37,249 nucleotides of DNA from Nocardioidaceae bacterium (GTDB lineage: Bacteria; Actinomycetota; Actinomycetes; Propionibacteriales; Nocardioidaceae). Where the stretch lies: positions 1 to 37,249 of the forward strand of contig JACCUS010000179.1 in the NCBI GenBank assembly GCA_013811715.1, in the 5' to 3' direction. How positions within the stretch are numbered: the stretch's first letter is position 1; each line of letters begins with the position of its first letter. Shown here piece by piece: positions 23,092 through 26,807 of the stretch. The notes under the pieces are model-generated. The model was not told the DNA's origin. It saw only the letters and a list, made by a program, of their open reading frames with translations, and did not search any database. The translations under genes were made by a program, and so were the position numbers.

Positions 23092-23790
23092 ATGTCGAAC
23101 TCTCGGGATCTCCTCTCGGCCTCGGTCGACCTGGTGCTGGGAGGCTCCTGCGCGGGGTGTGGGCGGCCTGGTCCGCCGCTGTGCCTGCGCTGCGGATCGA
23201 GGCTCGAGGGGCTTCCCTTCCGGGCGCATCCGTCCCCATGCCCACCGGGCCTCCCCCCGGTCTTCGCCGTCGCCGAGTACGATGCCGCGCCGCGGGCCGC
23301 GCTTGTCGCCCACAAGGAGGAGGCGCGCCTTTCCCTGGCCAAGCCACTAGGCCGAGCCCTCGCCCTCAGCGTCTTCGGGGTCTTGTCTCGCGCTGCGCCA
23401 CCGGCCGCGGGGGTGACAGCGATCATTCCGGCCCCGTCGACGCGCAGTATCGTGCGCGAGCGTGGCCATGACCCACTGCTGCGGATGAGCAGAGAATGCG
23501 GTCGCGCGTTGCGATCCGCTGGCGTCCCAGCCCGCGTCGACCCCCTCCTGCGGGTGGTCCGACCCGTCTCCGACCAGGCCGGGTTGTCCGTGGGTGGGCG
23601 TTCCCACAACCTCTCGGGGGCGTTCGCCGTACGGGGCAGAAGCAAGATGGCTGGCCGGTCGGTGATCGTCGTCGATGACATCATCACCACCGGCGCCACT
23701 GCCGCTGAAGCAGTCCGGGCGCTCCGGTCGGCGGGTGCCGACGTGCTCGGCGTCGCCGTGGTCGCCGCCACCCAGCGACGTCAGCGTTGA
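23092..23790 (+). CDS. comF: ComF family protein / phosphoribosyltransferase
   Basis: CAGCGRPGPPLCLRCGSRL zinc finger; VIVVDDIITTGATAAEAVRALRSAGA PRPP-binding motif. Confidence 0.94.
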   Translation: MSNSRDLLSASVDLVLGGSCAGCGRPGPPLCLRCGSRLEGLPFRAHPSPCPPGLPPVFAVAEYDAAPRAALVAHKEEARLSLAKPLGRALALSVFGVLSRAAPPAAGVTAIIPAPSTRSIVRERGHDPLLRMSRECGRALRSAGVPARVDPLLRVVRPVSDQAGLSVGGRSHNLSGAFAVRGRSKMAGRSVIVVDDIITTGATAAEAVRALRSAGADVLGVAVVAATQRRQR

Positions 23791-23859
23791 TCTTGCGAGC
23801 ATGGGGGCCCTCCCAAGGACTGAGCCGATATGACCCCGTCCAAGCACATTCGCATGACA

Positions 23860-24215
23860 GGCCGTAGTGTTTGGCGATGGCACCCGTCCGGGTCCGTGGT
23901 TGCGCCGACCGGGTCTCGATGCGTCGAGACCCGTATCGGCAAGCCGATGCCAGCCGCAGGCGAAACGGCCCACGTAAGGCCGACAAGGTCGTCACGACGC
24001 CTCGTCGGCCGATCACGGAGCGGCTTAGCCGTAAGTCCTGTCCCGCCGGTTGGTCAGACACCGACCGTCACCGGGAGAAGGCCGCTAGTGGCGACGAGCT
24101 GCGAAAGCCTCAGCAGGCGAGTGTGGGGACGAAGACCAGGTCGGACGGGCGGGTGCCAGCCCGGTAAGTCCAGCGTCCACCAACGAGGCTGCGGTCGGTA
24201 TCCACCGGCCGTCGT
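23860..24215 (+). ncRNA. Large structured RNA upstream of hpf (candidate raiA RNA motif)
   Basis: Long-range helix GGCACCC-GTCCG-GGTC (23879-23894) with GACC/CGGAC/GGGTGCC (24134-24157); hairpins GGGTCTCGA-TGCG-TCGAGACCC (23911-23932), GGCCGAC/GTCGGCC (23978-24010), TCCCG[GGTTGGT-CAGAC-ACCGACC]CGGGA (24041-24076), CGGTCGG/CCGGCCG (24192-24211); sits directly 5' of hpf. Confidence 0.72.
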
Positions 24216-24233
24216 CACATGAAGGAGGCACGA

Positions 24234-24854
24234 GTGGAAGTCGTGGTCAAGGGCCGGCACTGCGAGGTGTCGGATCGATTCCGCAGCCATGTCGAGGAGA
24301 AGCTGGCTCGGCTGGAGAAGTACGACCAACGCATTATCCGTGTTGATGTCGAGGTGTCGCAGGAAGCCAACCCCCGGCGCGCTGACCAGTCAGTCCGGGT
24401 GGAAATCACGATCCGCAGCAGGGGCCCGGTGATTCGCGCCGAGGCTGCGTCTGACGACAAGCTGAGCGCTCTCGACAAGGCGGCCGAACGGCTCAGCACG
24501 CAGATGCGCAAGGCTTCGGACCGTCGGCGCATCCACCATGGAGCCCGCACTCCCACCTCGCTCTCCCAGGCGATGGCGGCCGGTTCGGTCGGTGCGGAGC
24601 CGGCGGTCGACGAGCCCATCGAGGGTGGGCCGAGCGAGCACAAAGTCGGACCGATCACCGTGTGGGGAGACGGGCCGCTTGTCGTTCGGGAGAAGTCCCA
24701 CCCGGCAGACCCGATGACGCTGGACCAGGCACTACACGAGATGGAGCTCGTTGGCCACGACTTCTACCTGTTCATCGACAAGGAGGATCACCAGCCTGCC
24801 GTGGTCTACCGGCGCAAGGGCTACGACTACGGCGTCATCCGGCTGAACGGTTGA
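24234..24854 (+). CDS. hpf: Ribosome hibernation-promoting factor, long form (HPF/RaiA)
   Basis: VEVVVKGRHCEVSDRFRSHVEEKLARLEKYDQRI; C-terminal LDQALHEMELVGHDFYLFIDKEDHQPAVVYRRKGYDYGVIRL; AAGGAGG RBS, GTG start. Confidence 0.95.
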   Translation: MEVVVKGRHCEVSDRFRSHVEEKLARLEKYDQRIIRVDVEVSQEANPRRADQSVRVEITIRSRGPVIRAEAASDDKLSALDKAAERLSTQMRKASDRRRIHHGARTPTSLSQAMAAGSVGAEPAVDEPIEGGPSEHKVGPITVWGDGPLVVREKSHPADPMTLDQALHEMELVGHDFYLFIDKEDHQPAVVYRRKGYDYGVIRLNG

Positions 24855-24921: not shown

Positions 24922-25623
24922 ATGATTTCGGCTATGGACCAGGCTGTCGAGTTCACTGCGCTGCGTGAGCCGGTGCGTGTGGTGGTGATCGACGATCAGG
25001 AGCTCTTCCGGCGCGGCCTGATCATGTTGGTGTCCGCCGAGGACGACATCGAGGTCGTGGGTGAGGCATCCGACGGTGACCAAGCCGCTGAACTCGTCGC
25101 GGCGACGGTCCCCGACGTGGTCTTGATGGACGTCCAGATGCCGAAGACGTCCGGCATCGAGGCATGCGCGGCCATCAAGCAGATCGTTCCGTCGGCCAGG
25201 ATCGTCATGCTCACCGTCTCCGACGAGGAGGCCGACCTCTACGACGCGATCAAGAGCGGCGCCTCCGGGTACCTGCTGAAGGACGCCTCCACCGACCAGG
25301 TCGCGCAGGCCATCCGGCTGGTGGCCGACGGGCAGTCCCTGATCAGCCCCTCGATGGCCGCGAAGTTGCTCGAGGAGTTCAAGACGATCTCCCACCCGAG
25401 CTCCAAGGCAGACTCGCTGACGCCGAGGCTCACAGATCGCGAGCTGGAGGTGCTCAACCTCGTCGCCCGCGGACACAACAACCGCGAGATCGCCAAGGAC
25501 CTCTTCATCAGCGAGAACACCGTGAAGAACCACGTGCGCAACATGTTGGAGAAGCTGCAGCTGCACTCTCGGGTTGAGGCCGTGATGTATGCCGTCCGCG
25601 AGAAGCTGCTCGACCCTCCGTGA
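24922..25623 (+). CDS. LuxR/NarL-family response regulator
   Basis: VRVVVIDDQELFRRGLIMLV..VVLMDVQMP..LTDRELEVLNLVARGHNNREIAKDLFISENTVKNHVRNMLEKL. Confidence 0.95.
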   Translation: MISAMDQAVEFTALREPVRVVVIDDQELFRRGLIMLVSAEDDIEVVGEASDGDQAAELVAATVPDVVLMDVQMPKTSGIEACAAIKQIVPSARIVMLTVSDEEADLYDAIKSGASGYLLKDASTDQVAQAIRLVADGQSLISPSMAAKLLEEFKTISHPSSKADSLTPRLTDRELEVLNLVARGHNNREIAKDLFISENTVKNHVRNMLEKLQLHSRVEAVMYAVREKLLDPP

Positions 25624-26807
25624 GGCGAGAGACCCTGAGCCGGTCCCAGGCCAGGCGGGTGGCGCTCGCTGCCCAAGGATTCGTCGACCCGGCCCACGCC
25701 ACCCCGACGATGCGCACGCTTCTGCGCACGGTCGACCGCACCGGGGTGCTGCAGATCGACTCGGTCAACGTGCTCCAGCGGGCCCACTTCATGCCGCTCT
25801 ACAGCCGCATGGGCCCGTACGACGTCGGGCTGCTGGCGCGCGCGGCCCAGCACCGGCCCCGGCGGCTCGTCGAGTACTGGGCGCACGTGGCGGCGTACAT
25901 GCCGGTCGGCCTGTGGCCGCACATGCAGCACCGGATGCGCCGCTATCGCGATCTCTACCGGGAGTTCCACGACGAGCGGGCGGAGCAGGTGGCGTCGGTG
26001 CTGGCTCAGGTCAAGGAGCGCGGCGCGTCCACTCCACGCGACCTCGACGCCGGACAACCCCGGGTCAAGGACGGCTGGGGCTGGAACTGGTCGGAGACCC
26101 AGAAGGCGCTGGACTATCTCTTCGCGACCGGGCAGCTGGCCATTGCCGGGCGCAACGCTCACTTCGAGCGAGTGTTCGATCTTCCCGAGCGGGTGATCCC
26201 CTCGGAGGTGCTCGGTCAGCGCGAGCCGACCGATGCCGAGGCGCAGATCGAACTCGTCCGCCGGGCGGCCGCCTCCCACGGTGTCGCCACCGAGAGCTGC
26301 CTGCGCGACTACTACCGGATGCGCCACTCCCAGGTGCGACCGGCGGTGCGGGCGCTGCGCGAGTCGGGCGAGCTGCTGCCCGTGCGGGTCGAGGGTTGGG
26401 ACAAGCCTGCGTACCTGCACCGCGACGCCCGGCTGCCGCGTCGGATCGGCGCCCGCAGCCTCCTGAGCCCGTTCGACCCGGTCGTCTGGGAGCGGGAGCG
26501 GGCCTTGCGGATCTTCGGATTCCACTACCGCATCGAGATATACGTCCCGGCGCCCAAGCGGAAGTTCGGCTACTACGTGCTGCCGTTCCTGCTCGGCGAC
26601 CAGATCGTGGCCAGGGTCGACCTCAAGGCCGACCGCTTGGCCGCGGCCCTCGTCGTCAAGGGCGCCTACTCCGAACCAGGAGCTCCAGCGGAGACCGCGG
26701 CCGAGCTGGCTGCCGAGCTGGAGGCGATGGCAGGCTGGCTGGGCCTGAGCGGCGTTCAGGTGGCTCCGCGGGGCGATCTGGCTGCCGCCCTGGAGATGTC
26801 CCTCTAG
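25620..26807 (+). CDS. Winged-helix DNA-binding protein, YcaQ/AlkX-type crosslink-repair DNA glycosylase family
   Basis: RTVDRTGVLQIDSVNVLQRAHFMPLYSRMG, RRLVEYWAHVAAYMP, LLSPFDPVVWERERALRIFGFHYRIEIYVPAPKRKFGYYVLPFLLGD; overlaps the previous stop. Confidence 0.9.
   Translation: MRRETLSRSQARRVALAAQGFVDPAHATPTMRTLLRTVDRTGVLQIDSVNVLQRAHFMPLYSRMGPYDVGLLARAAQHRPRRLVEYWAHVAAYMPVGLWPHMQHRMRRYRDLYREFHDERAEQVASVLAQVKERGASTPRDLDAGQPRVKDGWGWNWSETQKALDYLFATGQLAIAGRNAHFERVFDLPERVIPSEVLGQREPTDAEAQIELVRRAAASHGVATESCLRDYYRMRHSQVRPAVRALRESGELLPVRVEGWDKPAYLHRDARLPRRIGARSLLSPFDPVVWERERALRIFGFHYRIEIYVPAPKRKFGYYVLPFLLGDQIVARVDLKADRLAAALVVKGAYSEPGAPAETAAELAAELEAMAGWLGLSGVQVAPRGDLAAALEMSL

Follow-up and report, generated by a model that had tools for sequence, protein, structure and literature searches.

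In Actinomycetes, the raiA/ModT RNA encoded upstream of hpf is likely to be bifunctional, acting both as a structured non-coding RNA and as a leaderless leader cistron of hpf; its transcription start site, its translation and its coupling to hpf are inferred. The RNA was analysed in a 37,249-nt stretch of DNA from a Nocardioidaceae bacterium (the window; contig JACCUS010000179.1), where it lies in the 443-nt gap (23791-24233) between comF (23092-23790, + strand), the upstream gene that forms the left boundary, and hpf/raiA (24234-24854, + strand). The latter encodes a long hibernation-promoting factor (PF02482 and PF16321) and is preceded by a Shine-Dalgarno sequence, AAGGAGG, which was assigned from sequence at 24222-24228 (+). 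The closest named relatives of the hpf protein come from Nocardioidaceae/Propionibacteriales metagenome bins, which places the host among the actinomycetes of that family. The comF-hpf gene order is kept in relatives both with and without the raiA RNA. Downstream of hpf, the window encodes a NarL-type response regulator (24922-25623; PF00072 and PF00196) followed by an AlkZ-like DNA glycosylase (25620-26807; PF06224).

The Rfam RF03072 raiA (ModT) covariance model matches positions 23883-24153 (+) with 120.5 bits (E 2.8e-29), ∼19 bits higher than the gathering score of 101.3 bits; the match is the sole one in the comF-hpf gap, and the RNA is single copy in the assembly. Membership of the raiA/ModT family is thus as good as certain, and on its own would make this RNA an ordinary member of a known family. 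Including a part of P1 that extends beyond the Rfam model and shows compensatory changes, the RNA spans 23877-24158 (+) and folds with a minimum free energy of -147.7 kcal/mol (z -4.5), equalled by none of 200 shuffled sequences. A preliminary description had proposed a raiA-motif ncRNA candidate in a structured comF-hpf gap and had named an Rfam search, covariation and fold energy as checks. Both proposals held: the gap is real, the match exceeds the gathering score, paired positions covary and the RNA folds better than its shuffled versions.

The element layout was taken from cryo-EM work (PMC11751092), and all of its elements, P1, the optional P2, P3a/P3b, P4-P8, pk1 and pk2, could be placed on the + strand of the window. 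The structure is shown by comparison of 55 sequences, drawn both from the window's class and from other classes of actinobacteria, in which 92.2% of cells of the cryo-EM-type structure are standard pairs versus 31.7-43.4% when it is slid, and in which 58 of 83 pairs have changed on both sides, a number that none of 500 shuffles came near. The 5′ strand of P1 (23878-23890) pairs with 24146-24158 (93.8% of cells paired), and all 13 pairs have changed on both sides; where it exceeds the Rfam model it reads GGCACCC/GGGTGCC in one group and GGAGTCC/GGACTCC in another. Inner P1, composed of CCG and UGGUU (23894-23901), is 99.6-100% paired, with 23894-23896 opposite 24142-24144 and 23897-23901 opposite 24134-24138. 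The P2 hairpin (23904-23940) has covarying basal pairs and a length that mostly shifts in steps of three, the P3a/P3b hairpin (23943-23969), laid out after PMC11751092, is 100% paired with compensatory changes, and the P5 hairpin (23978-24010) has covarying pairs and an apical part that aligns poorly. The 5′ strand of P4 (23970-23974), which pairs with 24122-24126, is invariant in the 55 sequences and is therefore uninformative for covariation. The pk-loop (24016-24038), with its conserved TTAG..GTAAG, carries strands of both pk2 and pk1: pk1 joins 23952-23957 in the P3 loop to 24020-24025 (99.7% paired in the 55 sequences), and pk2 joins 24016-24017 to 24130-24131 (98.2% paired), changing from CG to UA in 15 of the 55. 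P6 (24037-24117), with P7 (24042-24075) and P8 (24079-24110), is 95.5-100% paired and shows many compensatory changes.

Several helices of the preliminary description were upheld, including the outer helix GGCACCC/GGGTGCC, GCCGA/TCGGC with its hairpin (P2; the hairpin has 9-10 bp), GGCCGAC/GTCGGCC (P5) and CCCG/CGGG with GGTTGGT/ACCGACC (P7). Its next two P1 registers and their bulges failed, since P1 continues unbulged to 23890/24146 and inner P1 differs, and P3, P4, P6, P8, pk1 and pk2 had been missed. It had also drawn attention to a sequence occurring twice, GTAAGTCC, and to a 3′ hairpin. The first copy of the repeat, at 24031, corresponds to the conserved motif of the pk-loop; the second, at 24164, lacks conservation in relatives and was rejected as a functional repeat, though it carries the stop of the leaderless ORF. 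For the hairpin (24192-24211), no sequence-conserved counterpart was seen in relatives (sequence conservation only), and it gave no match to the Rfam raiA-hairpin at E ≤ 5 in the window or at E ≤ 1 in 20 relatives.

A leaderless ORF of 96 codons (23877-24167, +; stop TAA at 24165-24167) spans the whole RNA, and the preliminary statement that the gap holds no plausible CDS is therefore probably wrong. Among 198 distinct Actinomycetes RNAs the RTG frame is open through the entire RNA in 183, compared with 11 and 20 for the other two frames. Stop triplets occur in conserved motifs, as TAA in P4 (CACGTAAG), as TAG/TAA in one phase of the pk-loop and as TAG in P8, and the RTG frame avoids those of the conserved core motifs. 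The combined phase of P2 and P5 that would give a stop at the pk-loop is found in 1 of 194 sequences, the P4 stop phase only in L158, which is also the sole CTG-start sequence, and in-frame P8 TAGs number 11 versus 41 expected by shuffling (the shuffle ignores relatedness). Length-change events counted by tree parsimony are multiples of three in 58/76 (P2) and 56/72 (P5), with p about 1e-14 when events are treated as independent, as in all p-values given here, whereas P7 and P8, negative controls in the same RNAs, give 3/28 and 4/38 on the tree. Disjoint nearest-neighbour pairs agree, with length differences in multiples of three in 33 of 46 pairs for P2 and 26 of 38 for P5, and in just 4 of 20 for P7 and 3 of 21 for P8. 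The spacer between the RNA and hpf shows no multiple-of-three bias (17/73).

The selection for an open frame is thus shown computationally, and it is very likely that a translated frame running from +1 is under selection in Actinomycetes, in the absence of ribosome-occupancy or reporter data. GC content by codon position is 0.77/0.71/0.78 in P2 and 0.72/0.75/0.67 in P5 versus 0.72/0.34/0.85 in hpf; P2 and P5 thus lack a codon-position signal, which makes a functional peptide unlikely and leaves the frame as the only support for the case. Across lineages, the P3-P4 part is read in two frames (RQADASRRRNGPRK in one, GKPMPAAGETAHV in the other) and the frame downstream of P5 varies, and the peptide of the leaderless ORF has no Pfam match. 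We reason that avoidance of stops would by itself make about 75% of P2 length changes multiples of three, so that a conserved peptide is not needed. Because the peptide is not protein-like in codon composition, translation itself, rather than the peptide, appears to be selected, an inference that has not been shown directly.

Upstream of the frame lies a predicted promoter of the RNA's own, with a TANNNT-type -10 box, TAGTGT, at 23865-23870 (+). The box is shown by comparison: a TANNNT box precedes the RNA 5′ end by 6 nt in all 36 relatives compared and in most class members. A -35 element, CTNNCG, is present at 18-nt spacing in most close relatives and is not clear in the window. The inferred +1 coincides with the leaderless ATG (23877-23879, +), which is recognized by RTG conservation and the lack of a Shine-Dalgarno sequence. 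The RTG at this position is likewise shown, the first triplet being ATG in 182, GTG in 15 and CTG in 1 of the 198 RNAs, and the T at start position 2 is invariant, though it is paired in just 53 of 82. No Shine-Dalgarno sequence precedes the leaderless start in any of 136 sequences, whereas hpf has one in 122 of the 136. In a set of 32 named loci that carry the RNA (Actinomadura, Nocardiopsis and others) and that partly overlap the 198 sequences, ATG is the start in every case and frame 0 is open in 31; raiA RNAs of other actinobacterial classes have no consistent RTG and mostly short frames. In mycobacterial reporters, ATG and GTG start leaderless translation and CTG and TTG do not (PMC4633059). 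In the window, the TAG of the -10 box provides an in-frame stop shortly before the leaderless start, and the box supplies such a stop 12 nt upstream in 144 of the 198 RNAs; the open frame as a continuation of an upstream ORF was rejected on this ground. That transcription starts at the RTG is inferred from the -10 box, no TSS data being available, and translation from it is likewise inferred.

The position at which the frame ends is also non-random. Between 25 and 50 nt before hpf, 44 of 1034 frame-0 codons are stops in a set of 136 dissimilar sequences, the other two frames having 12/1013 and 9/1015 (p 3e-8), so that frame-specific stops are shown computationally, and the histogram of stop-to-hpf distances peaks at 0-50 nt. 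The stop of the window's own ORF, a TAA inside the second GTAAGTCC, is 66 nt before hpf and outside the main stop peak. About a third of ORFs (63/178) run past the hpf start, and precise coupling is therefore not universal. The Nocardiopsis ORF, which extends 73-170 codons further towards hpf, was discounted as evidence because the other frames are equally stop-poor. Coupling of leader translation to hpf is at present as plausible as its absence.

A search for an intrinsic terminator found no terminator-like site within window positions 23700-24300. Runs of at least four T after P1 occur in 2 of the 198 Actinomycetes RNAs versus 14 of 30 in other actinobacterial classes, and because such terminator-like runs are rare in Actinomycetes, co-transcription of the raiA RNA with hpf is likely in this class; this is inferred from sequence alone, without RNA-seq data. 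At many deep loci of other actinobacterial classes (L032, L034, L040, L049-L052 and similar), the RNA is found 400-760 nt before hpf with a T run directly 3′ of it, unlike in Actinomycetes.

The raiA RNA was detected in 37 of 99 genomes of the window's family and order, in 148 of 250 genomes when the family was sampled more densely, in 103 of 396 class genomes and in 113 of 298 phylum genomes, and it adjoins hpf upstream on the same strand in relatives and at all examined class loci where hpf was found. One family member (G865) yielded three raiA matches on short contigs; two of the three are partial, and assembly fragments or contamination may account for these matches. Of the 99 family and order genomes, 98 have hpf; since the RNA is lost while hpf stays, the RNA is dispensable. 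The comF-hpf gap measures 18-263 nt in RNA-less relatives versus about 320-600 nt with the RNA (gap lengths of 247 and 276 reflect mis-called comF ends), and no diverged raiA RNA was detected at E ≤ 3 in 40 gaps of RNA-less relatives. The C. difficile ModT has been linked to c-di-GMP (PMC11706538); c-di-GMP as a universal target is unsupported here, as 8 of 37 carriers are without a detectable GGDEF protein, and GGDEF proteins are often numerous in RNA-less genomes.

In 36 of 47 RNA-less relatives, the -10 box followed by an RTG is kept, in 30 of these as ATG at the exact 6-nt spacing; the leaderless start therefore outlives the RNA, and survival of the leaderless ORF is shown computationally. 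Several of these relatives retain a P1 remnant, and their ORFs, of 7-108 codons, mostly end 10-65 nt before hpf or overlap its start. Nine have the -10 box and then, 6-7 nt later, a bare ATG-TGA located 26-65 nt before hpf (start-stop loci L063, L065, L070, L074, L077, L081, L086, L087 and L090). One RNA-less large-genome family (L107-L114) has a leader beginning ATGACACCCGC that keeps both P1 strands with the core gone, and a uniform ORF of 47-50 codons ending 27-30 nt before hpf, as in a shrunken raiA locus. No comparable leader was found in orders without the RNA (Streptomyces, Mycobacteriales relatives), and hpf therefore does not need it generally; a GTG after a -10-like box in Streptomyces was not counted, its ORF lengths being erratic.

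It is proposed that the RNA would have its own promoter and be transcribed between comF and hpf, and that the transcript would either fold as compact ModT or be read as a leaderless mRNA. In the second case a 70S ribosome would start directly at the 5′-terminal AUG/GUG, read the RNA from end to end and terminate a little upstream of the hpf ribosome-binding site, the act of translation mattering because it may unfold the RNA and deliver ribosomes to hpf, or sustain transcription into hpf. It has been established that leaderless mRNA is bound by 70S particles (PMC9031893). HPF silences 70S ribosomes. As leaderless initiation uses the very 70S ribosomes that HPF silences, feedback is the simplest model: idle 70S particles would translate the leader and HPF synthesis would be favoured, and with busy ribosomes folded ModT would accumulate and perform a separate function in trans. 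For such an increase in HPF through leader translation by free 70S ribosomes there is no direct evidence, and the model is held only tentatively, on balance rather doubted than believed. The bolder reading, in which the choice between fold and leaderless mRNA is a sensor of idle 70S ribosomes that determines how much hibernation factor is made, is similarly a possibility that falls short of being the more probable one. Against the leader reading, the AUG lies in or beside the end of P1, and this helix end would need to be opened.

Other explanations are less well supported. The RNA could be a plain trans-acting ncRNA like ModT in clostridia, its open frame a by-product of GC-rich sequence; in C. 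difficile, ModT acts in trans with no ORF reported (PMC11706538), GC-rich sequence has few stops, and codon bias is lacking. This is unlikely given the multiples of three in P2 and P5 that are absent in P7 and P8, the invariance of RTG at the inferred +1, the frame-specific stops before hpf and the leaderless ATG that outlives the RNA; moreover, the stops concerned belong to conserved motifs of the core, so that their avoidance is not explained by GC content. Also unlikely is a cis-acting, riboswitch-type regulator in which ligand binding alters hpf expression. Such a role would suit the relatives' RNA, which immediately precedes hpf in the same orientation without an intervening terminator, and also the Rfam type 'Cis-reg; riboswitch', but clostridial deletions are complemented in trans (PMC11706538), many relatives have lost the RNA yet kept comF-hpf, and to our knowledge no ligand is known. 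The Rfam typing of RF03072 itself conflicts with the trans complementation in C. difficile.

That the ORF encodes a functional small protein, with the RNA fold secondary, could be argued from the frame-preserving indels and from the similar N-terminus, M(A/E)(P/S)xRVRGC, in most sequences. It is very unlikely, as P3-P4 is read in two frames, the post-P5 frame is not fixed, the composition is not protein-like, base pairs covary throughout, no Pfam match exists and frame-preserving changes are roughly as frequent as stop-avoidance alone predicts. The bifunctional reading remains preferred, and under it a translated ORF, which the preliminary description had listed as a refutation of the structured RNA, is apparently no alternative to it, the RNA of this class seemingly combining the two roles of structured RNA and translated leader.

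The window RNA resembles clostridial ModT (RF03072; C. acetobutylicum and C. difficile; PDB 9CXF, 9ELY) in P1-P8, pk1, pk2 and conserved loop nucleotides, and in having comF upstream, hpf/raiA downstream and its own promoter. comF(C) upstream and raiA/hpf downstream is the commonest raiA context, although not universal (PMC11706538). The window RNA differs from clostridial ModT in its large P2, which C. difficile lacks, in a P1 longer than the Rfam model, in the lack of a terminator after P1, and in the RTG at the inferred 5′ end with an open frame through the RNA. The clostridial raiA RNA is an abundant, stable, trans-acting transcript, properties known for clostridia only. In clostridia it is an independent unit with an intrinsic terminator, which is not a defining feature of RF03072. 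An ortholog from Acetohalobium arabaticum is given as Actinomycetota in PMC11706538; it belongs to Bacillota according to NCBI taxonomy, and hence no actinobacterial raiA RNA was tested in that study.

With the leaderless uORFs of mycobacteria, which are coupled to downstream genes and in which linkage but not the peptide is conserved (PMC4633059), and with the 5′-uAUG mRNAs of E. coli, whose 5′-terminal uAUGs can influence the next cistron (PMC4965119), the locus shares an RTG at the 5′ end (inferred for the window) without a Shine-Dalgarno sequence and an ORF that ends near a Shine-Dalgarno-led gene, the linkage being kept and the peptide not conserved. Unlike in those systems, the window ORF overlies a whole ancient structured ncRNA and its translation is inferred only. 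The leaderless polycysteine attenuators of mycobacteria (Canestrari et al., 2020, cited in PMC9094748) likewise place a leaderless leader ORF before a regulated gene, but the window ORF has no cluster of cysteine or other codons and no sign that particular codons are sensed. A leaderless ORF over a whole structured ncRNA was not found in the literature searched; mention in the primary raiA papers (Weinberg, 2017; Soares, 2024) cannot be excluded.

raiA/ModT is among the most widespread bacterial structured RNAs, and is not known to have a defined molecular function. In the literature searched it is considered non-coding, and the adjacent hpf is taken as a hint of synteny without informative value; what is new here is that an RNA regarded as purely non-coding is probably also translated in Actinomycetes. 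This would be a rare case in which selection acts on one sequence for a complex fold and for an open frame alike, and 'ncRNA' loci in leaderless-rich bacteria deserve to be checked for an RTG at +1. The leaderless frame ending at hpf provides the first testable link between the raiA RNA, ribosomes and ribosome hibernation and, if true, a switch that senses idle 70S ribosomes would tie the ModT RNA directly to hibernation.
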